From Isohypsibius dastychi (lineage: Eukaryota; Tardigrada; Eutardigrada; Parachela; Isohypsibiidae): 26,316 nt of DNA. The stretch's first letter is position 1, and each line of letters begins with the position of its first letter. The notes beneath the pieces are model-generated. The model was not told where the DNA came from. It saw nothing but the letters and a program-made list of their open reading frames with translations, and searched no databases. A program made the translations under genes and the position numbers. Shown here one piece after another: positions 1 to 24,800 of this stretch. Where the stretch lies: positions 1 to 26,316 of the forward strand of contig JAQIWT010000240.1 in NCBI GenBank assembly GCA_034696485.1, written 5' to 3'.

Positions 1-100
1 GAACTACCATAATTTGGCAGTCCGCCAGCCCCGCATGGTAACGTGTTCGCTTGGTCGTACCGGACCCCACCCCCGAGAAGTCTGGACCCCTCGCCCGTCA
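1..100. repeat. left arm of a window-spanning inverted repeat
   Basis: The first 100 bases match the reverse complement of 26196-26295 with about 10 mismatches and no gaps; 71-90 of the left arm is identical. Similarity stops abruptly after about base 100. It is GC-rich compared with its surroundings. The arms are 26 kb apart and face each other in inverted orientation. It could be a terminal repeat of a very large element, or two copies of a dispersed repeat in opposite orientation. The outer flank of this arm is not visible. Confidence 0.85.
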
Positions 101-205
101 GTGCTTGGGATTCCCAGAGCTATTGCATGACCTCAATAGAAAAATTGCTTATGCAATCCGCTCGTACTACTCACTGCGACAGGAGGCTTCCTGATCTTTG
201 AATAT

Positions 206-1143
206 ACTGGGTGGCTCACTATTTTTGACAACAAAATTTGGGGTAGTGCACCTCGCCCCCTCTTGCTCCATAACATATGGCTTTTAGTACAGTCGATAGA
301 GAATTCATTTCTGTACTCGAGACTGGGAAAATGATCCGTTTGGCGCAAATTCTATCCAAGGGGGAGCTGTAATAGCGGGGATCGGTCAAAACCCCCCATG
401 GCTTTTTGAGTTTTTTTTGTTTCAGGAAAGTTTCTATGACAACAGCTATTGATTGGATGATCGGCTTTTCATGTTCTTGATATCAACGCGTACCTGGAAA
501 ACTACTCTTACCAGCTGCAATTTGATTTAGGTGGAAAACTGCGTCGACATAGGAGAAATCACGCCAAAACCAGAACCGGCAGTTTTTGGTGAATTTTTGT
601 GGTTTTTTGAAGCGTTGGAGCTGAGAAATTCGATTTGTGATACAAAAGACATATCAATCTGTTCATCGTGACTTTGACTACTACACAGGTAGCTACATAA
701 GCCGGTTCGATCGTTCAAGAGACCGGCAGCAACGCAAAACCAAAAGTGACCAACCACGTGTCCGCGAAAACGGCTTTTGACGATTTTTCTGTTTACGAGG
801 GGGCTGCATCTCCTCGGTACTTAATCCAACCTCAAAACATCCGCTATAAAAAATGTAGCGCTTCAAAGACTGGCCCCAAAAAGTCTTGAAGATGCAGGGA
901 AAAAGTAGTTGTTCGCGGGTTTGGTAGATTTCAAGTTTTTGGGCCAAGCCAAAAAAAAATCTGACTTTTTCTTGTTCTTTTGACGCTCATGGCGTAAGTC
1001 AGAGGTCCATCAACTATTGGGACAACTGATCAGATAGAGAAATGAATTCTCCATCCACTACGCTAAAAACCACAAGTTTTGAAGCAGAAGGGGGCGAGGT
1101 GCACTACCCCAAATTTTACAGTCAAAAATAGTGGGCCACCCGG
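206..1143. mobile_element. 0.9-kb inverted-repeat element, MITE-like
   Basis: Bases 206-313 match the reverse complement of about 1036-1143 at roughly 80-85% identity. The best-conserved core is the stretch reading GGGGTAGTGCACCTCGCCCC. The arms enclose about 720 bp with no recognisable protein. Long subterminal inverted repeats around a short non-coding centre are typical of non-autonomous DNA transposons. I could not identify a clear target-site duplication, and the true ends may lie slightly outside these coordinates. No transposase is visible. Confidence 0.55.
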
Positions 1144-2183
1144 TAAAGTTCAATAGAGATGTAAATGCTAAGTTTGGCTTCGGTTCAAAAGGTGGTGACT
1201 GACCACTTCTTCGTTCGTTGCTAGTTAAATAGAATTTCATTAAACCTTTGACCTTGGAAAACTTCTACTGGTCATATCCTTTTGACAATGGAACTACGCA
1301 AACGCGATCCCAAAATTTAGTTTTCCTTCAAATCGTTCCAAAATCTCACTAACTATCTTTAGCCAAATTTGCAATCTATCCAATGCAATACATTAAATTG
1401 TGATTAGATTAGTAAATCAAAAATGTTACTGGGCGGAAGATTCAACGTTCTTTTGACCTTGAGTTTTGAATCAATAAAAAAATTCGGCATCGACATACCA
1501 AAATTTCGCTCGATCGTATTTCATCAATTTTTGACCCCGATCTTTTGACATATAGCTACTAATTTTAGGATTCGTATTGGCAAACTAAACTTGGGATCTC
1601 AAGGCTTTTACAGCTCTGTACCAGTCCCCAAGAAATAGTATGTAAATTGCGGTCAGACGGAAGGTCAGTTGATGAAAGCCTCCGGAAAAAACTTCGACTG
1701 AGACTTAGTTGAAACATGAACTCGACAACCGGTCCTTTCAATAGAAAATATTCGCACAATATTGTTTTAAAACGTCTCTTCAGTAGATTCGTGAAATTGT
1801 CGGGTAGAATGTTAATTTCTGCTCGAATGATAGGTTTGTCAAATCTATCTGAACTTTGCTAAGAAACAACAATAGAATTATCGATAATTCTTTTTTTGTT
1901 TGCCGAAGGCACGCATTATGACATGGTAAAGACGTCAACTACCCCTTTGTCCTGTAGATTTCAGCATCAGCTCCTAGGTTCTCTGCTATGAACATGGAAG
2001 TTACGTAGTTATTACGTTGTAATACAAGTTTATCAAACGATCGAATACCGAATGACCCGGGGCAGAGCAATATAATTCGAAGCATACACAGATACAATAC
2101 AGATGTTGTCTGTTGAGCAAAGCAGGTGTCGATCTCCGTTAAATTTCCAGTTTAGCGTGCTCTATAGATTTTGTAAACAAAGA
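1144..2183. other. non-coding stretch upstream of the astacin gene
   Basis: No open frame here resembles a known protein. The stretch is AT-rich and carries four copies of TTTTGAC on the plus strand (near 1279, 1450, 1529 and 1551). It should contain the promoter of the astacin gene. A weak TATA-like string lies near 2070, but I cannot place a transcription start. Confidence 0.5.
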
Positions 2184-4400
2184 ATGATAATGTCAAATCT
2201 CTCGATCGTTTTTGTTTCATTGTTATGCTCCGTGGTCAGGAACACCCTATCTCAAGAGTCGTCACTGCCTGATGCCAGTGGTAAGCTCTCTGCATCTCAA
2301 CAAACAGTCGTCCGTTAAAGTTCCTTGTTTAAGTTTGGTGTTGCCTTTTACCACCCGATGCAGCTGAAGGCTACCCAGATTGCAAAGCCATTTTAACCAA
2401 ATGTGGTGAAGCTGGCGATAGTTCAGAAACTCCCGCCCCAGAAACGACAACTATCCCAGGTACAAGACATAAGCAACATGTGTTTTTGTGAGGAGCTACA
2501 GGCGTATTTGACATTTTAGCGCAGATGAGGATTGATCCGGCGGTGAACCCTAAATTATTCGAAGGAGATATTCAAGGAGTGGACCCCTCTAATGCTGAAC
2601 AGGGTGATGTATGTCGCAACAAAATGTCACCGAACTGTATGACGATTTAGACTGGATGTGTTTTCCTAGTTGGTTGCGTTGAATAACGCCGTAAAAGATG
2701 AGAGCAAACGTTGGCCAAAGGGAGTGGTACCTTACAGATTGACGACGAGTTGGAGTAAGAGTCAAAAAATATTTGAAACAGGTGAATCACTAACAATATT
2801 TTTGTGAATGAAGATAACAAAGAAGCACCGCGAATAATCAGAGATGCAATGGACGTGTTCCACAAGAAGACCTGTGTCAGATTCGTGGAACGGAAAAATA
2901 ACGAGCCGGATTACATTCAGATTCTATCAACTGGGTACACTTTTTATCAATGAACACCGACTTACTGCATTGTTTGTAGCTCATGTAAATGTTCTGCAGG
3001 GGATGCAGTTCATTTGCCGGAAAACAAGGCGGAAAACAGTCGGTCAATTTGGATGAAAGAGGTGAGTATCACTAGGTTCATGAACTACGAATTATTTTCA
3101 CCAGTTGGGTGCTGCCAGGCTGCCTTGAGCCCGGAGTCATCCAGCACGAACTCATGCATGCTTTAGGTGAGATTTGTCATCAAGGGAGAAAGCTAAGAAT
3201 ATTAACTTCTGGTTCTCAATACAGGATTCTATCATGAGCAGTCCAGGACTGATAGGTGAATCAAAAGTTAAGTGAGGCAAATGTAGGTTTAACGAGGATC
3301 TATGGCAGGGATGATTATGTGGACATCAATTTCGACAATATACCTAAAGGTACCTATCCTCAACCCAAGTCTGGAGAAATTGTGGTTTGAGATGCTGTCT
3401 TATTTGAAGATCAGTATTGGCAGTTCAAAAAATACACGGACAAAGAAGTGACACACTTTGGATTCAACTATGATTTTGATTCGGTAAGCCAAAATATATC
3501 ATTCAGAAAATATATGTGCAAGCTATACAGATCCCTGATCATCAAGGTCATGCATTATAAAACCAATGATTTCGGAATCGATATCAACGGATGGACTATC
3601 ATGCCGAAAAGTAAATACAAATCTCAAGCCAACAGGTTGGGCCAACGAGAAGGCCTCAGCGCAATTGACATTGGGAAATTAAATGCCATGTACAACTGCA
3701 CTGTTGCTGGTACGTACTTTGGTTCTCAAGCTAAGTTTTAATCAATGGTGCACTTTTCGCTTTTCAGGACCGTGTCCAACTGGGGAGGCATGGAAGATAT
3801 TTGAAGGCAAATGTTATTTCTTCAGCTTCCTTGGTGGAGCAAAGTGCGTACAGTTTCCAGGTTTTCAAATTCTCTGCAAATGGTTTGTTCAATTCCAGCA
3901 AGGAAACTTGGAATGGAGCTCGCACTTTCTGTCGACAAAAATATGGAGCCATGTTGGTGACCATTCCCAAGAACCTGAAGCCAAAGTTGCAAGACGTCAT
4001 TAAAGAATCACTTGGCGACTCAGAGAACGTGTGGTTGAATAGCCTGAGGACGGTCAGTGGAGTGAGTCCAACTGTAATGGATGGAAAGGGTCCGGAGAAA
4101 CTCCATTTCATGTGTACGAGGAAATTAGCCGCGAAAGCCAGTGGACAAGCTGTTGACGAAACTTGAACTTTGTCAAGATCGACTAGGTGTTCACTGGAAA
4201 CTTTTCAACCACAACTTTATTCCCGTTTGTATCCAGAGCTTTCATACTGTAATAAGAGCGCAAATTAGAAGCACGGGTAGCGCGTTTGATTTTTATTCAG
4301 TGGTGCTTAGATGTCAGAATTCGGGGTATTCCTGGCTAGTCTATCCTACCTGTTACTCAGACAAAACAATGGCTCACCCGAACAGTCTCCTGTATATCAG
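2184..4400 (+). CDS. secreted astacin metalloprotease with C-type lectin domain
   Basis: Zinc endopeptidase of the astacin (M12A) family, probably secreted. My coding exons are 2184-2280, 2364-2459, 2520-2608, 2670-2781, 2814-2934, 3000-3061, 3119-3166, 3225-3255, 3309-3349, 3410-3483, 3547-3709, 3768-3843 and 3899 to about 4061; phases agree at every junction. The start at 2184 opens a hydrophobic signal peptide (MIMSNLSIVFVSLLC). The propeptide carries FEGD, the astacin aspartate switch. The mature enzyme begins near RWPKGVVPY and holds the zinc motif HELMHALGFYHEQSRTDR, split over two introns. The Met-turn is SVMHY. A C-type lectin domain starts with CPTGEAWKIFEGKCYFF and continues with WNGARTFC and LVTIPKNL. 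Beyond about 4040 the frame is uncertain: lectin-like pieces occur in another frame (4043-4110) and near 4291-4370, so the 3' end is approximate. Confidence 0.85.
4040..4370 (+). other. C-terminal part of the lectin domain, frame broken or exons unresolved
   Basis: After VWLNS the original frame runs on without lectin features. The frame two bases further on reads EDGQWSESNCNGWKGSGETP, which resembles the WxDG...GEP loop of C-type lectin domains, and it stops at 4156-4158. A further stretch after an acceptor-like tttattcag (about 4291) reads LRCQNSGYSWLVYPTCYSDK, like the last two cysteines of such a domain. No plausible intron joins the first two pieces, because the gap is too short. This suggests a one-base indel, real or from assembly. 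Confidence 0.45.
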
Positions 4401-6669: not shown

Positions 6670-7598
6670 CGATTTAGAATAAGGCGGTGAAGTAATGTGT
6701 AAATACGAATTTGCTTCTATGATTTAAAGCACAGCTTGAACTCAGTTTTGCGATGCCGGTAAGCTGAAGTGTCGCTTTGTTGAGAAATGCTTTGTTTTTG
6801 AAGTTGTCAGTTTTGGAAAGTACTCTAGAGACACCGCTGTCATTCAGGTGCAGTCGGCTTCCGTTGTGACACGCGCCGCATGCCAGAGTGTTTTACTGAT
6901 TCATCGCTTTGGAAGAGAATGTCGTCAACTTGCTGTAATGATGCCATGTGATTCCAGAGCAAGACATGTCGCATTTCTGTACGTTGCTGATTCTTGTGTA
7001 ACTTGGTATAATGGTGAATTTACAAAAGCTGGTAGATTTTATAAGCCGTGTAACACAGGCTGATCTCTCCGACGTTAGTTACGTCATCAAACTCAAGGCT
7101 ATTGCATGTTACTGGCTACAGTGACAATAATGACTTCATCAGAGGGGAAAAACACTACGGTAGAATATGATCGGATAATGTAAGCTTGGCGAATTTTTTT
7201 TATGGATTTTTCCTCAGCCTAAAGAAGACTTTGTGCTGTTCGATGCAAGTGAAGTCATCTCAACGTCATCCGGTACTGAATCCCGTACGCTTCGGAAACG
7301 CGCCCAGAAACAGAAATGGCGGTTTTAATATTGATGACAGTAACACAATGTCACATACTCACACCTGAGCTCGGCTAATGTCCGCATATTTCCTTAATAA
7401 ATCTGTACCGTACATGTCATTTCGGGAACGGATGTGCTCTATAGGCCCAATTAAAAGCGTTCTCCATTCGTGTCAACAACAGCGTACGGCGGTTTTTTCG
7501 TGGGGTCAGAAAACAACGATCCCGATCCTGCATTAGAAATTAGGAAATATCCATCCGTTAGTGTTCTTTTCTGTACGCAGATTCTCTGCAGATTCGAG
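6670..7598. other. divergent intergenic region
   Basis: About 930 bp between the start of the transporter (minus strand) and the receptor fragment (plus strand). It should contain both promoters. The small open frames present show no family features, and no repeats or RNA genes stand out. Confidence 0.45.
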
Positions 7599-10441
7599 AT
7601 GCTCAGTAGATACGATTATCTGTTTGGATCGACATGGATTCTTTCGGTGATTTCGGTGACGTACGGTATTTTGCAAGTTGAAATTGTAACCTTGTCTCAC
7701 ATGAAACCGGTGACCTACGGATCAATCTTCTATAACATCGGTCCTGTCATTACTGGTGTCAATCACTTACAGCAGACATATTATCAGTCGATGAATTTCA
7801 CTCACACGTTATTGATGATGGAAAACGGAGTTTCACCTGATGACCTTGTAGCTCAGAGTTCGGCCATTTTGGCCGAATGGTACCACAGGAAAAGATCAAA
7901 GAATACTCATCTCGCGGTCTTCGTCGCACCAGGCAAGTAGCGTTTCATACGATTTCCGTTAAACGAGCTTGTTCAGTATTAATCAACGGTTTGATTAGCT
8001 GGATTAGAACAGGTGACTGTTTGTAGACTACTTGCTAGCTGGAATGTTTTAAGCATAACTGGGTAAGAATTCGAACCACTCATCCGTCGTTTATTGGATC
8101 TCCAACAAATATTGCTCTAGAATCCCAAATGATAAGGCGCTGCGTGACAAGTCGCTCTTCCCAACCGCCATAACAACCGGAGCTCTACAGCTCCGGAGCT
8201 CTACAGCTCTCTCTCTCTCTCTCTCTAGCTCTCTCTCTCTCTGTATCTGGAAGACTGACAGTCGCGGTTTTCAACTTGGTCAAGCACTTCAATTGGAGAA
8301 CAGTATATCTCATTCATGACCAGAATAGCTACATCGCATATCTCCTCATATCAAATTCATTTACCTCTTCCATGCGTGCCGTAAAAGGCTCACAGGTCTA
8401 CATATCCAGAGTCAATTCAAAAAATTCAACAGACTTCAGTTCCTTATTGGATGATCTCAAGCGGCGGAGCAGAAGTGAGTGGAACAATATGATATGGAGC
8501 AATACTGTGAATGGTGTGCATTGTAGTCTGTATTTTCTTTGGAAACTCTCATGCGTTGAGGAGACTGATGGTAAGCCATTCCGAAATTCAGTTGGGCAAA
8601 CTCTTCAATGCTTCTTGTTACTCAACCAGATCCAAGCCGCGTCGAAAAACATGACAACCGGCGAATTTGTAAGTGGCAGATTTCTTCATGAATGTGATGA
8701 TCAAGATTCAGTGTCTGAACAGGTATTCGTCGGAGTAAAATATTACAACACAGAATCTTCCGGCAATTTCTCTTGGCAATACGATGATACCGATGATCAG
8801 ATCGCCAAAGAAGCCTACCGGTCGCTGTTGGTTGTTGGTCCAGACGACGCAGTCAATAACCTTCCATCGGGGCAAATCATGTCAGAATGGGCCAGTCTTG
8901 CAAAGAGCCGCTACAATTACACATTTCAGAGAAACGAAACAGTCAGACGAAATGCCCGATCTTTTACTGATTTTTCAGATTTATTGTTTCTAGCCATGGG
9001 CCGCTTTAATGGGAACATATGTTGCGTTTGATCTACTCGGAATCGTTCTGAATTCTACCTTATCCACACAGCCAGGATTCGACTGGCAAGATGGCTCTTC
9101 ACTGGCCAAGTTATTTTTCAATACAACATTCACGACGAATTACACGTGGATATACATCGATGAGGCAGGTGAGCGGATTGAGAACTATGTCATCGAAGAT
9201 TATCATCCAACAACTGGTCGACAGCGGGTAACTTTTGCAGACTCTGAGTAATTTACTAAAATTACTGATGCATCCGCAGGTCGTGCTCGTTCAAGACGCG
9301 GCCACTCAAGGAATTATTGCTGTCGGTGATATCGATTGGGGTGGCCCTGATGGTGCCAGTGTTCCATTGGATATCCCAATCTGTGGATTCAGCGGTTAAA
9401 GTGGACCATGTGGTACGATGAATTTCAATATCCAATGCGACCCGAATAAGAAGTCCGGGTTATAATTCTTTCACAGTAGCTTTCAGAATGTGTCATTTGA
9501 CAACAAAAGGGCTGTTTTCAGATCAGATATCAAAACAGGGTGTGTCTATTACCGAGGAGTCATGTCTGTAGTAGCGTGTATTCCGGGCAGTGTGTAGCTA
9601 TCACTGGCTAATTTTCGAGGGCTGCGTACCAGGGTTTGCTGCCTGCATGCACCCCCCCCCCCCGCCCCACCCATTCCAGAAGTTAACTCCTGCTTCGAAA
9701 GGGTTTTTGTTTCAATGAACAGCCTTCCTGTTTTCTTGGAACATGCCTTTGCAGACCGTCATTTATTATCAGTGTACGTAATATCAGTCACGACAATACA
9801 GTAAACGCTCCAATCACAACCAATTGCAACAGCATGGGACTGTATCACAGAAATCATACACTGAGACTGAAGAACATGCCTCGTAGAAATGGCTTTCTGA
9901 ATAGTGACCAACGGGAATATACCGGTAAAACTCGCGATTACTGTACCGAGCCCGATGTCTCAGCTCTCAGGTACCAAGCCCACCGAAGTTTTAAGTCAGA
10001 GATTTGCCATTTTTAAACCACTCGTACCTCGAAAACCAGATTTTGCTATTAAAGAGCGGTCTCAGTGACGTCAGCTCAATGTGTGAGGGGCGTGGCCAAC
10101 CAATAGCCGGTGCATCAGACTGACGTCGTATATGGACGACTGGCTGTTGGTCAACCACCTAAGTGGTGGACAAAACGATTGGGTGTCCTTGGATTTTGAT
10201 AGTTTTTCTATTTTTGTAGGAGCGAAAACGATGTCTTCAGCCATAATCGCAATAATAGCAACGGGCAGTATTCTGTTAGTGCTGTGTCTTGCATCGATAA
10301 TTTATCAGTGAGGATTGTCCAGAGCCTTGTTCGGTACGGTATCGATGATTTATTCGTTCGTTCCAGGGTTTCCTTGATCCGGTTGAAGTTCAACGAGAGA
10401 CGATGGGTTATTATTTGGAGTGAGCTCCGTTTTGAATTCCA
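7599..10441 (+). CDS. natriuretic-peptide-receptor-like protein: ectodomain, TM, juxtamembrane; no cyclase found
   Basis: Type I receptor with an ANF_receptor ligand-binding ectodomain, related to membrane guanylate cyclases. Exons: 7599-7932, 8008-8062, 8121-8474, 8527-8570, 8630-8668, 8723-8941, 8994-9227, 9280 to about 9394, 10220-10307 and 10367-10441. The start at 7599 opens a signal peptide (MLSRYDYLFGSTWILSVIS). Family marks follow in order: RLLASWNVLSITG, LFPTAITTGAL, VAVFNLVKHFNW, ICIFFGNSHALRRLM, EFVFVGVKYYN and VPLDIPICGF. The membrane helix is SSAIIAIIATGSILLVLCL; the juxtamembrane piece RRWVIIWSELRFEF resembles the W-x-W pattern before kinase-homology domains. Three problems stand out. 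A CT microsatellite puts exon 3 out of frame. A TAA follows CGFSG at 9397 unless splicing occurs just before it. Kinase-homology and cyclase exons are not recognisable. The gene is either a decayed copy, a clearance-receptor-like protein, or damaged in assembly. Confidence 0.7.
7933..8007 (+). other. GC-AG intron in the receptor gene
   Basis: The exon ends after GCACCAG and is followed by GCAAGTAG, a strong GC donor. The acceptor is ggattag at 8001-8007. Joining them keeps the phase and gives the family-typical VTVCRLLASWN. No GT donor nearby does this. Confidence 0.55.
8179..8242 (+). repeat. tandem duplication plus CT microsatellite inside a coding exon
   Basis: A 15-base unit (GGAGCTCTACAGCTC) occurs twice at a 16-base period and runs into an interrupted CT tract to 8242. 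The unit is itself a near-palindrome. The tract sits between the conserved TTGAL and GRLTVAVFN segments of the ectodomain. The segment from 8122 to 8248 is one base longer than a multiple of three, so the downstream frame is lost. Adding one CT unit, or removing two, would restore it. Confidence 0.8.
9397..10219. other. gene-poor stretch between ectodomain and membrane-helix exons
   Basis: This is probably one long intron, or an intron plus a small lost exon. Splicing from the GTTAAA at 9395 to the acceptor at 10219 keeps the phase and would remove the TAA. Read straight on, the first 60 bases give SGPCGTMNFNIQCDPNKKSG, which looks like continuing receptor sequence after the stop. A run of 12 C lies at 9652-9663. 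Nothing else is recognisable. Confidence 0.4.
9652..9663 (+). repeat. poly-C tract
   Basis: Twelve consecutive C residues, followed by GCCCCACCC. A likely site of assembly or replication slippage. Confidence 0.95.
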
Positions 10442-11240: not shown

Positions 11241-14200
11241 ATGGCGCCACCGGGACACCGCAAGATGAGCGCCAGCACGATGAGCATCAGCCATGCTTTA
11301 ACGCGTGAATTCTTGAATCTGATTCAAGACAACAAAACCGCCCGACGGATCCGTATTGCAAAATTGGTGGTGATATTCGCTGTGCCAGTTGTTGCTCTGA
11401 CCGTACTGGTAAGTCACTGTATTGTACCATCACTGTCACGACCAATGCGCCAACGAGCCGATGCGAATCTTCTGTATTTCAAAACAGAAAGAAACTAACG
11501 GATCATTTTAAAAGAAGTTCGGCTATTCTTCTCTCTGCGATCGAATATTTTCACTCAAGCTCAAAGTGGCCATCAAAAACGAATGTCATTTTTCAGGCAG
11601 CCATGCAGATCACAGTGGCCCTCCGTGTCAGAGAGCAATCCTCAATACTGAGCAGCTCAGTGGCCACCAGCGTCCAGATCAGTCTGGTTATCACGAGTTT
11701 GGCACGAGAACGTGGGATGACCAGGTATGCCAAGGTTTTCATTCAATTCTTTCGGTAAACTATCTGACCGGACGTTATTGTAGTCTTTACCTCAGCTCAA
11801 GAAGGTATTTTTAACCACTAATAATGGAACTGCAGCATATCGAGGCTATGTGCGACGTTTGTAGCGAAGAAGCATGGGAGAAGCTGGCCAGCTACCGGAA
11901 AGCCTCCCTGGAGTCCGTCGAGGCCGTCAGTGAGTGGCCGGGATCAGAAACTGATGGACCAGCTGTGGCTTCACGTAAAGCGTTTCTGTAAGTCTCAAGA
12001 GGATGACAACGCTAAGTGGTCACCCAGGTGCTCAATGTGCATGAGCTCTTAGATGGGAAGCAGTGCAGTCCTTGAGCTCAGAAACGCGACGTATTTGCTT
12101 TGCCATACGCTATAGCGAACATGTATCGAGTTTCGAACCATATTTCTCGTCGACTGTGGACAGACAAATTGAAATTATTTCCAGGTCGAGCCTGCTGAGC
12201 CACAGATTAAGTCAACGTGATTCCAACCGCACATCCATTCAGGAGGTTTTCTGGTATAAGGAGCTCGTTGAATCTGTCATGCTGTTGATGAACAAAGAAG
12301 TCAAACTGACTGGCGATTCTGGCGGTCAGTTGTGGAAAATGCTCTTTGCTTTGGAACTGCTGGTCAGATCAAAAGAAAGCCTTGGTAAACAAGCAATCAG
12401 TTAACTGGAAAAATATTATTCTATCTCCTTCTTGGCATAAAAACACTCAGGTATCCAGCGTGCAGTTGGCAGCGCGTATTTCGGCAAGGGCTTTAACACT
12501 CCTGTCGAGAAAGCAGTTTTTCGAGGTAGGTGGGCATTCCTGGTGTCTTCAATAAATCCGATGGCCACAACGTGATTCTCTTAGAGCACTACTGGAAATC
12601 CCGAAACTTTCTCACATTATGTCAAGATCACTCGATCAAATCTGAAGAAGCAATCAGATATCTCTCTAAAGACAAAGAAAATCTGATATCAACCCTGGCC
12701 TCAATGAGAGACGTCATCCTCCAAAACCGAAACACACCATCAACCCCCCAAACTGGTTTGGTGAATATCTCTCGAAATCTGATGCTTTTTTGTTCAGCAT
12801 AATTGTTCGAATGAATAGATCTGGTTCGGAAATATGACGATTTATATCGATTCGCTTGCGGCAATTGAAAATGGACTTGTTATTGACATCACGGCGCAGC
12901 TTGATTCCCAGGTGAGATTTATGATACAGCTCGTTGCGTAAGTGCATTACGTTTCATCATAGCAAAATGCGGCACGCAGAGAGCTGGTTGAAGCCATTAC
13001 GTTTTTGACACTGGCGCTCGTGCTTTGTCCTCCGCTATGTGTCTGGTACTTCCGCTCACTGAATATCATCAATCATAACATCAGCAGTGCCGCGAAAGCC
13101 CTGGCTACCGAAGCAACGGAATTGACTGCAGAAAAGAAGCGAGGCGAGAAACTGTTGCAGAGATTGTTGCCGCCGTTTGTAGTTGAAGCTCTGAAGAAGG
13201 GAGTTCCCGTTGCAGCTGAACAATATGATGCAACAACGGTTTGGACAGCTCTTCTCCAAACCGACTATCTTTCTTTCAATAACATTGCAGATTTACTTTT
13301 CTGACATTGTTGGGTTCACGAAGATTTCAGCGAAAAGTACACCACTTCAGGTTATTGACCTTTTGAATCGGCTCTATACGGATTTCGACGCTGAGCTGAA
13401 CTCCCATGATGTCTACAAGGTGGAAACAATTGGCGACGCTTACATGGTATCTATTTTGCTGCGTTGATATGTTAGACGCACTAACGGACTTTTGTTCAAG
13501 GTGGTCAGTGGGATTCCGTTAAGAAATGGTGATGCCCATGGTGGTGAAATTGCAACTTTAGCACTGGAACTGCGGGGTATAGTCACGAAGTTCTGCATAC
13601 CTCACTTGAAGAACGAAAAACTGGCACTCCGAATTGGAATTCATACCGGTGAGTCAGACCACGTTAAACATGAGGTGAGAGCGCGCAGTAAGATATTTTG
13701 ACGCAAGTATCGGTTTACGTATGCTGGCTAATCTTGATGAACAAATTTCCATGCTTGATCCTGTCTCCAATTGACAGAACATTCTTTCAGGGTCTGTCCT
13801 GGCCGGGGTGGTTGGCCGTCGAATGCCACGATATTGTCTATTCGGACAAACTGTTTTAACAGCTGAGCAAATGGAACAGACCGGACTTCGTAAGTGACAC
13901 TACTGTACTGTAATTGCGCTGACATTTCCGCACAGTAGCACTCCGCAAACTGTCTCAATCAGTGTTTTCATCGATGAAGGGGGGGGGGGATACATTCGCG
14001 TTCTTTAAAGCTCCTTCAGTTTAGCCTAAAGTATTTGAGGTTACAGAAGTGGAAATACAGAAAATCTATAAAATTTACCGCGGTTTTTGACTTGAATGGC
14101 CTTTCTAGTGACGAATTTCGTTTGGCTTCACACTGTGATGCCAAACAAGTGATTTTCTGCCCCCCTCCTCCGTAAAAATCACTAAGATGAACAATAAGGA

Positions 14201-14555
14201 TGATATGATCAGTGGCCAACGCAATTCTCTGACAACGTGTCCCTCATTCTAGATTTTGATTCTCATTTCACTTCCTAATTTATGCTGGTTTTAGCGATGA
14301 GAATCCACGTTAGCCATTCCTCTAACCAACTGCTCATGAAGATCGGTGGGTTCGAACTGGTAAAGCGTGACACAACCTACGACCTCAAAGTATGATCATG
14401 AAGATTTCAATGCAACTCAAATTTATTCAATAAAATTCGTGACCCTGCAGACTGACGCCGCAAATGGGAACGGTGAGACGTATTGGCTGCTGCAAAAAGT
14501 GGAAAAAAGACATAGAGTATCTGATGGTGTATCGCACATTGCTTTCAAAACCTGA
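11241..14555 (+). CDS. NIT-domain membrane guanylate cyclase, copy A
   Basis: Predicted two-span cyclase, 620 residues. Exons: 11241-11408, 11597-11724, 11784-11804, 11865-11987, 12185-12384, 12451-12525, 12585-12760, 12819-12911, 12963-13238, 13291-13446, 13501-13648, 13791-13889, 14295-14389 and 14451-14555. A short basic N-terminus precedes the first span ([18 protein letters not shown]). An extracellular NIT domain (about 57-335), the nitrate/nitrite-sensing fold of bacterial receptors, carries the [10 protein letters not shown] signature. The second span is [19 protein letters not shown] helical linker ([17 protein letters not shown]) leads to the class III catalytic domain. The metal aspartates D425 (FSDIVGFT) and D469 (GDAYM) and the guanine-selecting E465 and C537 (RYCLFG) are present. 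The transition-state Asn and Arg are replaced: [11 protein letters not shown] has Leu544 and Gln548. Ligand specificity is unknown; the start is supported by copy B. Confidence 0.87.
11784..11804 (+). other. 21-nt micro-exon of copy A
   Basis: This exon encodes SLYLSSR across phase 2/2 junctions, between acceptor gttattgtag and donor GTATTT. Copy B has an exon of the same length and protein sequence at 15466-15486, which supports the call. Confidence 0.75.
13131..13245 (+). repeat. identity tract shared with copy B
   Basis: These 115 bases are identical to 17427-17541, including the first seven intron bases. Exon 13291-13446 also differs from 17587-17742 at only about five positions. The surrounding exons of the two genes are far more diverged. 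This fits gene conversion over the linker and the start of the catalytic domain. Confidence 0.85.
13890..14294 (+). other. long intron 12 of copy A
   Basis: This intron is 405 nt long, while the matching intron of copy B is 68 nt (18109-18176). It contains a run of 11 G at 13979-13989. No exon or recognisable element is visible in it. Confidence 0.6.
13979..13989 (+). repeat. poly-G tract
   Basis: Eleven consecutive G residues inside intron 12 of cyclase copy A. It does not affect the coding sequence. Confidence 0.95.
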
Positions 14556-15044
14556 AAAAAATACATGTTTACTACACATCTTCAAGATACAGGAGCTACT
14601 GTATAATACTGCGCAGACTAGTTAGCCGTTTCTCCGACCGAAATTCGATCCATAGAAGGCAACTTAATTGCTGCGCACAACTCTCATCATGTCTAGAATT
14701 TTTTTATGTCCATGTTGGCTTCTCATGATTTTATGATGACAAGATTTTATGATTACAGAACATCTTAAGTGTATAAATTGAAATGATAAACATAGGCCTC
14801 ACAAATCTTTCATTCTTCCAACATGCCCGGAAACATGCTATCGGTACGTGTCGAGTCCTCTCTTAATCCATCCCAACAACAAATGCGCAAGTTGAGCACC
14901 ATACACTATCCTACAAGGAATCGATGAATGAGCTGCAATTTCACTCCATATTAGACTATATGAACAAACGCCGCACCACTAAAAGCCTTTTCATCCCTTT
15001 TTCTTCTCGGGGATAACTGCATTTGAAGTCAAGGCTCGTTGAAA
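14556..15044. other. intergenic region between the two cyclase copies
   Basis: About 490 bp, AT-rich. It holds the 3' untranslated end of copy A and the promoter and 5' leader of copy B. I find no canonical AATAAA here, only ATAAA variants near 14773. No other gene is visible. Confidence 0.45.
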
Positions 15045-18000
15045 ATGTCCAAAGTATCGGCCGGACCGCGTATGAGCGCCAGCTCCATAAACATCGGGCA
15101 TGCATTGACCAGAGATTTTCTCTCGATGATCCAGGACTCGAAATCGGCGCGGCGTATTCGCATGACCAAGCTGGCTGTCATTTTCGGAGTTCCAGTTGTC
15201 GCCTTGACAGTCTTGGTAAGAACGCGGATTGCAAGTGACAATTAGTAAACAATTGACATCTCACCACTTCAGTCTGCCATTGAAATCATCCTGGCTCTTC
15301 GTGCTCGAGAGCAATCGTCATTAATCAGCAGCTCTGTTGCTAGCAGTGTACAGATTAGTTTGGCTGTCACTCAGCTCCAACTTGAACGCGGCATGACCAG
15401 GTACCGTTCTTCCGGTATCAGGGAATTTCGAATATAAACTGAAAGGTCTTATTTTATGGTTGCAGTTTGTATCTCAGTTCTCGCAAGTAAGTCGCACTCT
15501 CTCGAGGCAAACTTGTTTTTCTAAAATCAAAAATTCTTCTACCGGCGGTGTCCTTGTGACAGAGTGTCACGTATTTCGAAGACGGAAATGTTGCGTTTTT
15601 AGCCTATGGTAGGCATGATCGAATTAGCATGAAGAAAGCCCAGACACAGCTCAGTTCGTAAAAATGGCAGAACATTCATCGTTCAGACTATTTTTCGTTC
15701 GACGAGCCACGAAACACCTTTGACGTGCGTAGCATGCTTTCAAGCTCAAAACTGCACGGGCAATGTCCAAGTGTATTGATCCACTTGTTTGATAAGTTGT
15801 TACAGTATGTCACGCTATTTTTAATTGAATTCAGCCGGCTCCGGCCCTACTCCTCTAATCTTTTTTGTGGGAAGCCATTTTTATGGAATCATTACATCTT
15901 GAGAAGATGAAAAATAATCGAAAGTTGGTCAATGAGCTAGTAATTTCATAACGCGAGCTAGTATGGACGATGGCCGTTCACCAGACTTTCAGAGAATCCA
16001 ACCTGACACGTCTATCCACTGGTTTATACAGATTAATCTGCAGTCCAGAAGCAGAAGTTTCGAAAAGTAACCAAACGGTTGAAGAGGAAAACATCCATTC
16101 AAACCATCCAGATGCACCACATTACATACACTCAACGAGAGTGGTCATAACCTGAGATTCCATCACCTCAACACTGACCCTAAGTTTTCCCGTATTTTGT
16201 GCAGTGAATCTGAGTGGGGCGATTCATATTTTTTACGAGTGGTTTTGACAGTCCGATCTTTGCACATCTTCCGCTATACCCTTGATATTATCCTGACCTT
16301 TTTAACTTCAAAGTGAGGATGCCTGGGAGAACCTAACCAACTTTCGCAATCAATCCATCCACGCAATCCGTGCGGTCACGGCATGGCCCGGTGAGGATAG
16401 TGATGATGCGCTTGTGCAGACACAAACACAGCTAGAGTAAACAATACCGTCATTAGCCATTAGTTCTGATTACCTCTACTCTGTACATTATCCCAACAAC
16501 AGGCTTGGGCTCATCAGCCATCGAATCGATAAGGGTTCCAATCGAACTTCGATCCAAGAAGTGTTTTGGTATACCAATCTACTGGAATCGATACTGAAAC
16601 TGATAAACCGGGATGTCCGGTTAACCGGAGATACGGGCGGTCAGCTATGGAAATTGTTATTTGCGTTGGAGCTCTTCGTTAAAGCCAAAGAGAGTTTTGG
16701 TGAGAAATATGAGAACGTTTGTGAGTTTGCTTATGTTCGTCAATTGATTCAAGGGATACAACGTGCTGTTGGGAGTGCTTACTTTGGAAAAGGATACAGC
16801 ACTCTGGAAGAGAAAACGATTTTTCGCGGTAAAGCTGCCATTTTCACCAAATACAAATTTGAATAAACCCTACTCTAGAGAACTATTTCAAGTCCAAAAC
16901 ATACTTATCGCTGTGCCTGGACCATTCTGCCGCATCGCAGACAACATATGACGAACTACTAGAAACGAATCAGTTCTTGATTCTATCGATTACCGGAATG
17001 AGGGAAACTATACTGCGGAATGAGATAATCGAAGCTGAACCAGAACGCGGGCTGGTGAAAAATAAACTACTTTTGGAGATTTACCTTGTCAGCTTTGCAT
17101 TTGCATAGGTTTGGTTTGGCAACATGACAAGTTTCATCGATTCGCTGGCCGTGATTGCCGGAGATTTAGTAGATGGTATAACCACGCAGCTGGATTCTCA
17201 AGTAAGCAAATATAGAAATGGTTTTTTCTAGTCAAATTACATTGATTGTTCAACCTAGAAAGCCAAAGCGGAACAAGAGTTAACGGAAGCGATCACATTT
17301 CTGGCCTTGGTCCTGATCCTTTGTCCCCCGCTTTGTGCATGGTATTTTCGTTCGCTCAACACGATCAACCATAACATCAGCAGTGCAGCGAATGCCTTGG
17401 CGACCGAAGCGACCGAACTGTCGGCGGAAAAGAAGCGAGGCGAGAAACTGTTGCAGAGATTGTTGCCGCCGTTTGTAGTTGAAGCTCTGAAGAAGGGAGT
17501 TCCCGTTGCAGCTGAACAATATGATGCAACAACGGTTTGGAATGACGTTTTTCAAACTGACCATCTCCCTTTCAATAATATTGCAGATTTACTTTTCTGA
17601 CATTGTTGGCTTCACGAAGATTTCAGCGAATAGTACACCACTTCAGGTTATTGACCTTTTGAATCGGCTCTATACGGATTTCGACGCTGAACTCAACTCT
17701 CATGATGTCTACAAGGTGGAAACAATTGGCGACGCTTACATGGTACGGCTGAAACCTTATATACAATCTCAGTCCCAACAGAAACTCTTCTGTCAAAGGT
17801 GGTCAGCGGTATTCCGTTGAGAAATGGTGATGCACATGGGTATGAGATCGCATCAATGGCGTTGGAGTTACAGAGCATAGTTGCCAGCTTTGAAATGCCG
17901 CATCTGCCTGATGAGCGCCTGCAAATTCGTATCGGCCTTCATTCAGGTCAGTCGATGTCTTTTCCTGTATATTCTCGGGGAAAACCAATTATTCTGCGAA

Positions 18001-18488
18001 TTGTTAAAGGGGCGGTCTTGGCGGGAGTTGTGGGGAGAAAAATGCCGCGATATTGCTTGTTTGGTCAGACTGTTCTTGGCGCTGAACTGATGGAGCAAAC
18101 TGGAATGCGTGAGTACTGTGGTCTCTGGCAAGTTCGAACAGATGTATTCTGATTCATTCATTTTTGTAAATAATAGCAACTCGGATTCATATCAGCAAAG
18201 ATTGTTACCAGCTTCTGATGAAGATAAGCGGCTTCGAGATGACGAAGCGTGACATTTTCAAAGACAAAATACCAAAAGAGAAGGTGATTTTAGAACTCTG
18301 GGTTCAGCATGCTCTGTACATCAGCTTATCTGTTTTGAGTGAGACCAAGAAAGAGACAAAATACATGGATGACTGATGATTTGTTGCAGATGACAAAAGA
18401 GATTGACATCGGCGACACTTATTGGCTGTTGGGTAAAAGCGCGCCAGCTCCGAGGAAACATAAAGAAAAGTTGAATTTCAATACATGA
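15045..18488 (+). CDS. NIT-domain membrane guanylate cyclase, copy B
   Basis: Tandem paralogue of the gene at 11241-14555, 622 residues. Exons: 15045-15215, 15273-15400, 15466-15486, 16314-16436, 16503-16699, 16754-16828, 16879-17054, 17109-17201, 17259-17534, 17587-17742, 17799-17946, 18010-18108, 18177-18283 and 18390-18488. Eleven of the 14 exons have exactly the same length as in copy A. The first span is [18 protein letters not shown], the NIT signature [10 protein letters not shown], the second span [18 protein letters not shown]. The catalytic domain keeps [17 protein letters not shown] and RYCLFG, so metal binding and guanine choice look intact. It reads [11 protein letters not shown] where active enzymes have FGDTVNTASRM, with Leu544 and Leu548 at the Asn and Arg positions. 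It ends with [18 protein letters not shown], short of any further domain. Intron 3 is 827 nt against 60 nt in copy A. Activity alone is doubtful. Confidence 0.87.
15466..15486 (+). other. 21-nt micro-exon of copy B
   Basis: Encodes SLYLSSR between acceptor tggttgcag and donor GTAAGT, phase 2/2, in the same position as the micro-exon of copy A. Confidence 0.75.
15487..16313 (+). other. long intron 3 of copy B
   Basis: 827 nt long, about 14 times the matching intron of copy A. I see no exon, open frame of note or terminal inverted repeat. A small palindrome (GTGACAGAGTGTCAC) lies near 15555. An old insertion is possible but not demonstrated. Confidence 0.5.
17427..17541 (+). repeat. identity tract shared with copy A
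   Basis: Identical over 115 bases to 13131-13245, covering the membrane-proximal linker and seven intron bases. See that entry for the interpretation. Confidence 0.85.
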
Positions 18489-18888: not shown

Positions 18889-21800
18889 CTACAAATGCTG
18901 TATTTCTTCAAGATCACTCGTTGGAGTCAGAGTTGACTCCGGTTGCTCAGGACTAAGAGTCGGAATGATGATGCCATCATCAACAGGCTGAATTTCGAGT
19001 GACGACTCGATTTCCGGTTGGGGAGTTGGGTCGATATCGACGGAGACCAGGGAAGCGTTACTGTTGGCGGAAGACAGGCTGGGAGGGGACCGGAAGGCAC
19101 AATCTTGGTTTCGAAGCTGAGTTTTGACCATCTCCAACTCAGCACGCAGCATCACGCGTTCTTCGTCCTGAGAACAGCCAGAATCTTTCAGTTATAATCC
19201 GTATAATTCGTTTGCGGTTTTGGGTCATCAATCAGACTGTCGAAAAATTTCAACATTACATTCACTTACGGATCGCATAATGGCATTCATCAGCGCTGTG
19301 CATTGGCTGTCGAGGTTGATACTCAACGATGTGAGAAGGTTAGATTCAATGGTCGGAATGGTCGGGCGGGTTTGTATCAGGGAATCAGTTCGGGAGGGAT
19401 TAGTTTCCGAGGGTATCAACTGCACTTCCTCAGAATCAGGAAGCGATAGGGAATCGTTGACTAAACGTGTTAAGGAGATCGTGTTCACGATGATGCTGTT
19501 GATTAAATCACGCGGGGACAGGAGATTCAGCTCGTCATCAGAGAGAGCTTCCAGATCTTTTGGTGGACCACCTGTCAAACCAAAACATCGATTAGTCAAC
19601 TAAAAAATTCAACCAAAAAATGCAGGGCGCCACACATTTTTCTGACTTTATACTGAACTCAGAAGAACTGAAGTACCCACCGAAAATTTGTGCAACAAAG
19701 CGTTGCTTATCAGCCAGCGCCGCTTCAACGATCATTCCACATCGGCGTACTTCCTCTACCGGTGTCATGACAATTTCAACTTCAGCATCCCTCACTTGTG
19801 TCTCAGATTCAAAGTTTTCCGAGGAATCAAGTAGTACGGGCTGGTTGCTATCACGAGAAACGCTAGTCACCGAGTCCACTTCCTCGTAATGTTGCACATC
19901 ACTAGATGTCGGCAGGACAAACCCATCTTGACTATCCAAAGCGGAGGGGGCACTTGCTGAGGGTATTACAGTTGGTTCAACAGGGTGGATAATCGGGATG
20001 GGCTCATATAGCTTCGGATAGTTCTTAATGGCGTCTGAGATGTTACTCGACCACTTTTTCTGCTCGTTAGCGGTATTGGCAACCAATTCGTACATTTGAG
20101 CACCACCTATGAAAGAACAGTTGGATGACATTTTTGGAATTCTGAGTGTCCAAACTTTACAACTCTGACCTGTCTGGGTGATGTTGGTGAACAGGAAGAA
20201 AGCACATCGGTCAGTGGCGACATCTTTAATATACAACTTATCCAAACTAAGAACCGGTGCCCAGTATTTCAGGCTCTCATCTGTTTTCTTGTCGTTAAAG
20301 TTCGGGAGGACCGGCGAAGCGTGGAATTTGAGTATCAGCTTATCATCTTGTTTTGTGACGAGCAATATCAGTCGATCGAGAAGAATGACATGGAGATCGA
20401 CTGATTTCTGCTTGCTGAGACGCCATGTTAGATCGCCGTCAAGTAAAAGCCGATACTTTGAAAGATCAAGTTCCTGAAACAAAGAAAACCCATCAGTACA
20501 TAACAATCCAAAATCCGCAGACAAATTTCAACCAAAAACCAAACCAGTATTTGGAAAAGAACAGCAAAAACTACACTTTTTGACAATTTTGAAGTGGCAT
20601 CAGGTTAAAAGCGCCTGATTGTTGTAAAAAACACACAAGCTGCGGTTGAGAAGGTTTTCACGTTACGAGTCAGAATAACCCTTACTTTGTGCGAAATGGA
20701 GAGCTTGTCTTGTCTGGACACAAATGGCCCCATATCAATCTTCTCCTGAAGTTCACGTAACCGGGCTCGATTAGCAGTCTGATGAACTGCTTCATTCACA
20801 TGATCCAATATTTCTCGGCTACTCGTCAAAGCCTGCCGTATCCTTTCATATTCCAGCTTCTGTTTCTCCGTCTCAACTGCAAAAAAAGACCGGTATTTCA
20901 CCACAGAAGTATTAAACGAACAAAATACATCGTTTCGACTGTTAGTTCCAAAGACTCAATCATCAAATGCTATACGAACTGGAATCCGAAACACAAACGT
21001 TCTCTGGTTTTCTTACAAACACCGGTCATTTTTATTAATCATGGAATATGATTTGTTCTGGTTTGCTCGAACCTGGGGTGTACTTGAGTAAGTTCTCAAG
21101 AAGTAGTGGATATTTGGTCAGTCTCTGCATTCCAGTTGGGATGATGTCTTTGAGTTGAAGTCGTCGACACAATCCATTTCCGGCAGCTTCTTCCAGGAAT
21201 TTGGCCAATTTGGTATCCTTCTTCTGTTTGGCTTTCAACTCTTCCAGACCACGTTCCTGGTTGGCACAAAATTCGGCAGCTGCACGCTTGAAGTTTGCTC
21301 CATTCTCCCCATAAAACCTTCAAAACAAAATCTGAAGCCATTAGTTATCATGATATTTTGGTGAAACCGGCTTTTGTTGTTATTAATCCAACACTAATTT
21401 GAGAAACACGTCAACGTGTAATTTTCTGTGTATGGTTAAAAAACTGACCTGGAAAGCAAGAGTTCTCCGACATCCCCAATAAGTCCGCCAGTCTTTTTCA
21501 TCCTCCTCATTTGCGTATTCAACTCGCTGTGCATTTTGATCATGACTTCCAGATTGGCAAATACTTGAGCGAATAATTCCGGAGGCAGAAGACGTTCGTT
21601 TTTAAGAGGAACAAAAAAAACACGATGAAGGACTTTGAGATTCCGGACGTGGGTTTGTTCCGTATGGAATAATTCCGCGAGGACTTCTTGGCGTTTTCGC
21701 CCTCGAATATCGAGCTCTTGGAGAACGGAATGATCGGAAATGGCAGTTTGCCAACTTGGTATTTGGTCGGGATCAACTTCCAAATCCGAGTCTTTGTCGT

Positions 21801-24800
21801 CCAATCCAGACTGGTGGAATATTAAAAAATATAACGATAAAAGTCGATAAATTAATATTCAATATTTATATATATCAATAAATGTATTCATATTTAAAGC
21901 CAAAAAAGCGCAACTCACCCCTCCAACAGCATCCATGGAAGCATTGGGGCTCTCATTAGTCGAGACACTCTGTAGTGAGACAGATGAGCTTCCATTAAGT
22001 ACAACTCCCTCATCTCCATCATCTCGATAGAAATGCGCCGGATCCGACTTTTTCCTCACTCCAGCTTTTGCTTGGTGCTTCTTTTGCGTCTTTAGAGACT
22101 CACTCCGTCCAACGGCGGTCAACGGCACTTGTTGTTTAGTGGTGGCTCGATCAGGGTCGTCGGTTGTGGAGGCATCATTTTCCTGCATTTTCCCCGTTTC
22201 GAAACGATTAACCACTTGATGAACGTATCCTTTGCTAGTGTCGGGATTGTTTTCCTGATCAGCGTTGGTTGATTCGGATTCTTCCTTCTCTTCTTGGGCT
22301 TTTTTAGCATGCGAAACTGCAAAACGTAGAAATGCATGAACAGGAAAGTACCTCAATAACTAACATCTTTCTCAACCTCAATAACACGGCTATTAACTAC
22401 TTGGAAAATTACGTCTGTTCGGGTTTGAAGCCAGTTTTGGTGATGCAAATTATCTGATTTGCATTATTCGCTTTCAAAATCAAAACCATTTGCCGTAAAC
22501 AAAGCCAGCTGAATTTCCGTAAACAACTGAAACAAATATATGTAATATCATCAAGTCTATCAACGTACAAGAAAGTTAAACGTAATTCTCGATCAAAACA
22601 ATGCCGCAATTTCCAGATGATCGCTGACAGAACTTCCGAAAATGTCCAGAATAATGAAGAAATAATCGATATGAAATAATTTTAATAAGTCCAAGGTGTA
22701 GGAAATGAATATAATTGATCCACTCGTCATTCAGCTATCGAATGCCACCACTCAAAAACCCAAGTATCCAAAAATAATCTTTGGCAGACAGCGCAGAATC
22801 AACCAGTGAAAAGACACATTTGGAGTCAAAACGGGCTTCGGACGAACCTCAGTCAGACGCCGTGTGATGCTCCAAATTCAAAAGTAACTAGTCTACTTGC
22901 AAAACTAGATAGATGTTGAAACTGAAAACTCGAACGTCCATCAAGAAATCTAACAAAGACGAAAAATCCACCGAGCTGCATCATGTTCTTTCTTGGGGAA
23001 GAATTATCTGTTCTGCTCACCTTTTGTTAAAAACTTCTAGATTTGATAAATTGCAACAAAAAAGCCGTTTGGAAAATCCTGGTAGAGACTTGAAATCTCG
23101 AAAACTAATACGATTCCACTAGAAAAATATTTTTAAACAAACCAGAATTCGTCAGAATCTGGGGGCGCGATTTCTCAAGCCAGACTATTTCGGAAGAAGA
23201 AACTTCTAAATTATATTTTTGCAAAATTGACTTACTGGCAGTGGGGCTGTTATTGCTGCGTTTTCTCCCAAACAATCCAAAAGAGTCCATAATAAAAGAT
23301 CGTCGTTCTTTTTTGTCGTCGATAATGCAGGTCTCTTCGACGTTGCGAATACATGCTCGATGAACGATGAAACTGCAACTGGAACACTGATACCCTTGCG
23401 GACTGACTCCCCACATGATCACATCGCATTGCATGCAACTGCGAGATGCCGTAAATGAGACCGGCGCAAATTGATGGCCGCTGACATTGACAGGCTTTTT
23501 CGACTTATCTTTCCACTTGAACCTAAAAAACACCCAGAGACCGACATTTAATATGAGCAGATGAACAAATAATCATGGGCCCAATTAAGTACCATGTATC
23601 TAATTCTGATGTTTATTTTTTCTAGATGGCCATTACTATTACTCCTCTGCAAAACCGTTCGTTAACATCGTAAAAGCCGACTAACGATGCCATCAAAAAC
23701 ACTGAGAAAATACATAACATACATTGTACATGTACTGCCAAAACAGTTCACGACCGAAGAAAACGCTGTCTACCATATTTTTATACTGATCTTGTCATTC
23801 TCAAACCTTCAAAGCTAAAATTAAGAAATCGATAAAAAGAACAATTTACACAAGAATTGATTTATAATGCTCAACTATTTTTAAAACAATTCCATATATT
23901 CAAACTCCAGTTACGATTTGTTTTCCAATAGCAAATTTTGAGCTGCGATTAAATATGCAGGAACAGACTTCTTACTTTCGATTTCAAATAATCGATAAGA
24001 AAACTTGTCAACTCGTATTGATGGAAGACAGAGAAATCCGCGATATCGCAAACAAAATCAGGACTGAAACAATTCCAACAAAATACACAGCGTACTTAAA
24101 TTTTCCCGTTCAGCTAGATGAAGCCAAACAAAAATTAATTCAAATTCAGAATACACCGCAAATAACACACTAAATTCCGCAATGTATACTTTTCCGACAA
24201 AGCACAATGACAACCACAAATTACCGATAAGCAGAAACCAAATCAAGATGTACTGCAGGATGAAGATCAATTTTCACTAACAGATCGCTGATCGGAAGTT
24301 AAATACTCGCTCGAAAAATGCCAGAAAATGAATCTGCCCAAATATTTGTTCAAAATGTACTTCGCCGTTTTAAAAAACTCACCTAGAACGATCTTTTTGG
24401 ACAAAGAGCGGCCATTTATCCACCAAGTATGATCCATCGCGTCCCATAACTTTATAATTATTCATCTTCAAAAACGTCGCTAATGCACAACCACGAGCCG
24501 CTTCCGGATCACAACGGCTTTCCGGCTCTTCATGATGTCCTTGCTGGACAAACTCCAAATCTTTCGCCAATGTTTTCTCCACTATTTCGCGACACTTTTC
24601 CGGAGAGCTCATGGCGTCTTTCAGCTGATGTTCATCGAATTCGCAAAAACCTTTCGTCCTGGCTTGGTTGAATTCCGCGAGGCCGGCATTGATTACATCC
24701 TGCGTCAATCTCCTTCAAATACAACAAGAATTATCCCGAGTGACAAAACAACTGGCATCTGTATTTGATGGGAATGCGATGAAACGGATGAACTAAGAGA

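Follow-up and report, generated by a model that had tools for sequence, protein, structure and literature searches.

Two tandem genes of the tardigrade Isohypsibius dastychi, lying on a 26,316-nucleotide stretch of contig JAQIWT010000240.1 (positions 1 to 26,316, hereafter the window), encode NIT guanylate cyclases, A and B, that kept one half of the active site and lost the other at three points. Lost from both were the ribose-binding Asn, the phosphate-binding Arg and the phosphate-binding Lys. This pattern suggests, with moderate confidence, that A and B act as the alpha-type, metal-half chains of obligate heterodimeric membrane NIT guanylate cyclases.

Structure and active sites of genes A and B

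Gene A (11241..14555) and gene B (15045..18488) each comprised 14 exons (plus strand, like every feature of this section) and encoded proteins of 620 and 622 amino acids, as established by splice models and Pfam. Arranged in tandem, they displayed 13 introns each in matching phases, and their proteins shared 68% identity over 599 columns. The splice models gave open frames and GT-AG introns. The NIT (PF08376) and Guanylate_cyc profiles both scored far above cut-off and were matched nearly end to end by each protein (87-319 and 411-600, respectively, in A), and no other Pfam domain was listed. A C-terminal class III cyclase domain followed transmembrane (TM) segments, which were predicted and judged by eye, and a signalling helix, and a kinase domain was absent. 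A and B share the TM-NIT-TM-cyclase layout and full-length homology with the animal NIT cyclases of PMC7400543.

Exon 12 harbored the altered catalytic positions. In A (13791..13889), codon 544 was TTA (Leu, 13856-13858) and codon 548 was CAA (Gln, 13868-13870); in B (18010..18108), the same codons were CTT (Leu, 18075-18077) and CTG (Leu, 18087-18089). The spliced models thus bear out the Leu/Gln and Leu/Leu pairs first noticed in a sequence-only reading of the window. Alignment to solved structures placed the two codons opposite the Asn/Arg of GC-A (FGDTVNTASRM) and the Thr/Lys of soluble guanylate cyclase (sGC) alpha-1. Exon 10 (13291..13446 in A, 17587..17742 in B) encoded the metal-binding Asp425 (13303 and 17599), Glu465 (13423 and 17719) and Asp469 (13435 and 17731), all kept, and exon 12 also retained C537 (13835 and 18054). 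Arg516, the counterpart of the triphosphate-binding Arg574 of sGC alpha according to the structure alignment and a published residue list, was kept as CGA in A (13630..13632) and as CGT in B (17928..17930). Exons 13-14 encoded no KGxG lysine loop in A (14295..14555) or in B (18177..18488).

The sGC site has been mapped to eight positions, namely Asp486, Asp530 and Arg574 of alpha, and Glu473, Cys541, Asn548, Arg552 and Lys593 of beta (PMC3591389). The eighth is the KGxG-loop lysine, K593 in sGC beta and K1065 in adenylyl cyclase (PMC3591389); Lys593 was identified by counting as the first K of a KGxG-type loop, since the genome's own sGC beta has that K 24 residues past the Tyr aligned to human Y569 (counted over a presumed exon join). 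On this map, A and B kept positions 1-5 (D425, D469, R516, E465, C537) and lost positions 6-8. The metal aspartates and the guanine-selecting Glu and Cys were intact, as the sequence-only reading had claimed, and its broader statement that every other active-site residue was kept held for D425, E465, D469, R516 and C537 but failed at the KGxG lysine. Both proteins therefore lacked the Asn/Arg of NxxxR and the lysine that a self-sufficient homodimer carries, and displayed an sGC alpha-like half-site, with the metal Asp pair and alpha-side Arg kept and the beta-side Asn, Arg and Lys gone. The additional loss of the lysine strengthens the half-site idea, since it leaves one half intact and three residues missing from the other. 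An alternative exon 12 supplying Asn and Arg was looked for and rejected, as scanning all six frames of the window for the motif, a search that an intron-split motif would escape, gave no NTASR-like exon.

A recent gene-conversion tract linked the two genes (13107..13446 in A, 17403..17742 in B; codons about 377-473). Third-position identity reached 0.91 within it, against 0.33-0.43 in the remaining coding segments. It ran over the end of the signalling helix and over that part of the cyclase domain which carries the metal half, D425, E465 and D469 included. For these residues A and B therefore do not count as separate evidence, but their relatives do. Exon 12 is under selection, because A and B share 85% of its amino acids with a value of only 0.33 at third positions. 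Most segments beyond the tract likewise showed amino-acid identity well above third-position identity, with a weak 3' end (0.47 vs 0.40).

Relatives of A and B among animal NIT cyclases

The best listed relatives of A and B were P0001 (53%) and P0002 (52%) of Paramacrobiotus metropolitanus and P0003 (48%) of Hypsibius exemplaris. None of them had Asn or Arg at the equivalents of codons 544/548, which were V/Q, A/T and R/W, respectively. E465, D469 and C537 were kept in all three, the D425 stretch being absent from the database model of P0002; KGxG was absent in P0001 and P0002, and the P0003 sequence ends before that loop. An EQ pair stood shortly after the lost Arg in 5/5 tardigrade rows. The predicted structure of P0001 showed a long-helix layout, with a cyclase domain matching GC-A and sGC chains. 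Two further proteins of P. metropolitanus, P0004 and P0029, were complete, with Asn, Arg and KGxG all present. In a 122-row tree of NIT cyclases only, built without outgroup, the five deficient tardigrade proteins (A, B and P0001-P0003) formed one clade (SH-aLRT 100), which P0004 joined (SH-aLRT 99). Judging from these comparisons, the Asn/Arg loss in the lineage of A and B is old and goes beyond chance, because three tardigrade relatives from two other genera share it with differing substitutes. A search of PDB sequences with the NIT stretch of P0004 returned two weak, unrelated matches only.

The wider survey covered 195 aligned NIT cyclases, comprising A, B and listed NIT proteins (the best 120 of 5157, 59 of 59, and the best 120 of 5119); these lists lean to their queries, 23 listed matches without NIT were excluded, and the source organisms looked at were animals. 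As regards possible ligand binding by the NIT domain, E95, R96, R155 and R217 were all present in A and B, with position 217 being Arg in only 92/195 rows. A and B differed at codons 544/548 from most animal NIT cyclases aligned, since 145/195 rows had Asn+Arg; Asn+Lys accounted for 22/195 and other pairs for 28/195. The metal half was nearly invariant: D469 was Asp in 195/195 rows, D425 was Asp in 192 rows and a gap in 1 (P0002), the other 2, which carried Asn+Arg, having His, and R516 was Arg in 194/195 with one gap. Among the 50 departures from Asn+Arg, D425 was changed in 0/49 readable rows and D469 in 0/50. E465 was Glu in 194/195, the exception being P0157 with Asp there and Arg replacing Cys, and C537 was replaced by Thr in five Asn+Lys rows.

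The lysine loop mostly accompanied the Asn/Arg pair in these rows. Scored by our own pattern and with 16 truncated rows set aside, KGxG was found in 130/135 complete Asn+Arg rows, 1/21 complete Asn+Lys rows and 0/23 complete others (1/44 of rows without Asn+Arg). When the trait columns were removed before tree building, a 130-row tree required 8 changes of the Asn+Arg label, at least 6 of them forced by starred branches and all counted irrespective of direction. That tree was a quick one; it omitted 65 of the 195 rows, mostly near relatives (P0157 and P0159 included), and its long branches P0077, P0029 and P0098 were of unsure placement.

Sea spiders displayed a reciprocal arrangement. In P0133 of Pycnogonum litorale the metal D425 was replaced by His, with Asn, Arg and KGxG kept, and P0159 of Nymphon striatum showed the same replacement with the same retained residues. 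A second Pycnogonum protein, P0113, kept both metal Asp and the Asn, had Tyr in place of Arg and lacked KGxG; it shared 67% identity with P0133 over 650 columns. As far as their residues indicate, P0113 and P0133 resemble the alpha/beta arrangement of sGC within the NIT family, and this pair is the strongest argument from sequence that the half-site pattern means pairing. The gene model of P0159 also held a reverse transcriptase-like stretch, recognized by eye.

Candidate partners in the genome and flanks of the window

The genome searched amounted to 30.4 Mb in 1648 contigs and was probably partial, as genes run off contig ends. A profile search of the fetched cyclase loci, excluding those of the window contig, detected NIT exons on contigs C618 and C114 only. 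The C618 gene (locus L062, about 1-2281, minus strand) was a third NIT relative with an in-frame stop at the position of Trp197 of B; its cyclase half lies beyond the contig, and this copy would be either a pseudogene or an assembly error. The idea that C1545 holds the rest of the C618 gene found no support. C114 (locus L024, 198-1894, minus strand) encoded a divergent NIT cyclase with D425, E465 and D469. A genome scan with the Pfam NIT model matched one exon of B only, which marks that scan as insensitive. A partner for A and B in this genome is plausible, with C1153 and C114 as the only candidates.

Stitching of 38 cyclase loci gave 22 with Asn+Arg (23 with C958, read by eye), 9 with another pair and 6 unresolved (C100, C114, C1545, C1546 at 9.6 kb, C514 and C936); this tblastn stitching used NIT anchors only and misreads residues at intron-split motifs. 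In the cyclase of C1153, Asp, Glu, Asp, Cys, Asn and Arg could all be read; a hydrophobic segment precedes its signalling helix, and its lysine loop reads KGKD if the presumed exon join is right. The cyclase family of this genome was very large, with 166 exon-level PF00211 matches across dozens of contigs, and a rough reading displayed unusual residues at the Asn/Arg positions in C148, C188, C300, C697 and C812.

The sGC subunits of this genome, named by their best matches to sGC beta-1 and alpha-1, served as controls. The sGC beta on C1546 had Gly replacing the metal Asp and kept Asn, Arg and a KGK loop; the sGC alpha on C742 kept the Asp and had Thr/Lys at the Asn/Arg positions, a reading that comes from a weak match of 20 bits. 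Scored like the NIT cyclases, they reproduced the known alpha/beta split. C1546 (L010, L011) also carried, about 5 kb from sGC beta and on the same strand, a second cyclase resembling the C742 sGC alpha by eye.

Within the window, open reading frames (ORFs) at 7455-10311 on the plus strand comprised one with a sub-cut-off ANF_receptor match (8174-9028), followed by one with a hydrophobic stretch before its stop, and may belong to a short-tailed receptor. The six-frame motif scan of the window gave no cyclase motif upstream of gene A. On the minus strand, ORFs at about 19595-23572 matched PH_16, RhoGEF and C1_1, and probably represent a Rho exchange factor gene.

Proposed heterodimeric subunits and alternative readings

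If A and B are metal-half subunits, A or B homodimers and A-B dimers would be nearly inactive. Each would use its signalling helix to pair with a complete NIT cyclase, for which the P0004 type of Paramacrobiotus would be the natural candidate. Glu and Cys are residues of the Asn/Arg side, which would leave only the metal side to come from A or B, and the mixed dimer would hold one working site, with metals from A or B and Glu, Cys, Asn, Arg and Lys from the partner, its second site being a dead pseudo-site. Binding of a ligand, presumably nitrate or nitrite, to the NIT domain would then switch the single working site on or off. Poor activity of homodimers and A-B dimers, and one site with a complete partner, had been put forward by the sequence-only reading; both are supported as far as inference goes, as the full set of known residues is unattainable in any dimer of A and B.

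Such a division of labour operates in sGC. Like A and B, sGC alpha (6jt0_A, 3uvj_A) keeps the metal Asp pair, the alpha-side Arg, Glu and Cys, and departs at the Asn/Arg positions, where it has Thr/Lys. In A and B, unlike sGC alpha, a NIT sensor and predicted TM segments replace the heme-associated modules, and their nearest relatives are NIT cyclases. sGC alpha-1 is not known to have the Lys loop either. sGC alpha needs a partner for the other half-site (PMC3591389). ODR-1/DAF-11 of C. elegans have also been proposed to form an obligate heterodimer in which each chain supplies part of the catalytic residues (PMC8045692, and more firmly PMC5225109); fusion experiments on these receptor cyclases support it, and formal proof in native cells is still awaited (PMC8045692). 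ODR-1/DAF-11 are, however, receptor cyclases with a kinase-homology domain and both partners named, whereas the partner of A and B is only a candidate. Rhodopsin guanylyl cyclases with NeoR (PMC7655827) resemble the proposed A and B as membrane sensor cyclases working only as heterodimers, but they are fungal rhodopsins, and pairing need not be tied there to lost catalytic residues. The earlier view that such a design was undescribed hence does not stand, as sGC alpha/beta works in this way (PMC3591389) and the same was proposed for those C. elegans receptor cyclases that miss such residues (PMC8045692, PMC5225109). Animal NIT cyclases are widespread, with function still to be tested (PMC7400543), and titles and abstract openings, with subscription journals little covered, revealed no publication that deals with NIT cyclases of tardigrades or with the catalytic residues of this family. 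The half-site design is thus known, and its recurrence in NIT cyclases seems new within the literature searched.

Several observations weigh against A and B being such subunits. The metal Asp may also have been retained for folding or nucleotide binding. Outside the window contig, no exon of the NIT region was recovered with P0004 or P0029 as query, the genome being probably partial. The contig of the candidate partner C114, which has a NIT match, ends before the Asn/Arg exon, and C1153 was rejected as a proven NIT partner, since a profile of our own gave no NIT hit for it at E-values of 1 or less. No candidate tardigrade partner among those seen had lost the metal Asp, so that pairing is not forced from the partner side. 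Outside tardigrades, departures were often mild (Asn+Lys made up 22/50), and inactivity is not claimed for each Asn+Lys or Ser+Lys protein, because that substitution is milder. Testing Asn+Arg against KGxG over 122 rows by Fisher's method gave 7.9e-25, which is inflated because rows share ancestry; phylogenetically independent pairs all pointed to joint loss, with 0 contrary pairs, but reached a median p of 0.0625 only.

The alternative that survives best, although we consider it unlikely, is that A and B are pseudocyclases, that is, NIT sensors without catalytic role which regulate or titrate complete cyclases or have another output. It would account for the loss of three catalytic residues without a common replacement across five tardigrade proteins, and it fits the failure of P0004 and P0029 to find a partner as well as the alteration of other cyclase domains of this genome at metal or Asn/Arg positions (e.g., C300, by a rough reading). 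However, D425, D469 and R516 were unchanged in all readable rows departing from Asn+Arg, so that only one half-site is degraded, while a plain pseudo-enzyme is expected to lose its metal residues too. The sequence-only reading had left obligate heterodimers and pseudocyclases side by side; the relatives, the parallel losses and the sea-spider pair favour heterodimers over dead sensors, with the partner in this genome only a candidate.

It appears improbable that A-A, B-B or A-B dimers are reduced but useful enzymes in which other residues replace Asn, Arg and Lys. A and B retain their guanine and metal residues, and the new conserved EQ pair hints at something other than plain decay of the loop; against this, the substitutes vary among close relatives (L/Q, L/L, V/Q, A/T, R/W), and in sGC the division of site residues between two chains leaves homodimers inactive (PMC3591389). 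Least probable is that A and B are relaxed or decaying duplicates heading to pseudogenes, as the stop-bearing third copy on C618 could hint, since their frames are open with GT-AG introns, amino-acid identity exceeds third-position identity in most segments outside the tract, and relatives in two other genera are in the same residue state.

Beyond metal-half subunits in one tardigrade, it is conceivable, at somewhat less than an even chance, that animal NIT cyclases repeatedly split into metal-half and Asn/Arg-half chains. Heterodimeric sensors would then have arisen several times from a homodimeric ancestor, with A and B as the metal half alongside a complete partner in tardigrades, and a reciprocal pair in sea spiders. 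If so, the membrane NIT family would replay the sGC alpha/beta split, and would offer several independent transitions from homodimer to heterodimer, as known from sGC. If many NIT cyclases are half-sites, single-gene expression would give false negatives, and pairs would be needed in assays. The sea-spider pair, and the tardigrade set of A and B with a P0004-type protein, are concrete testable pairs.

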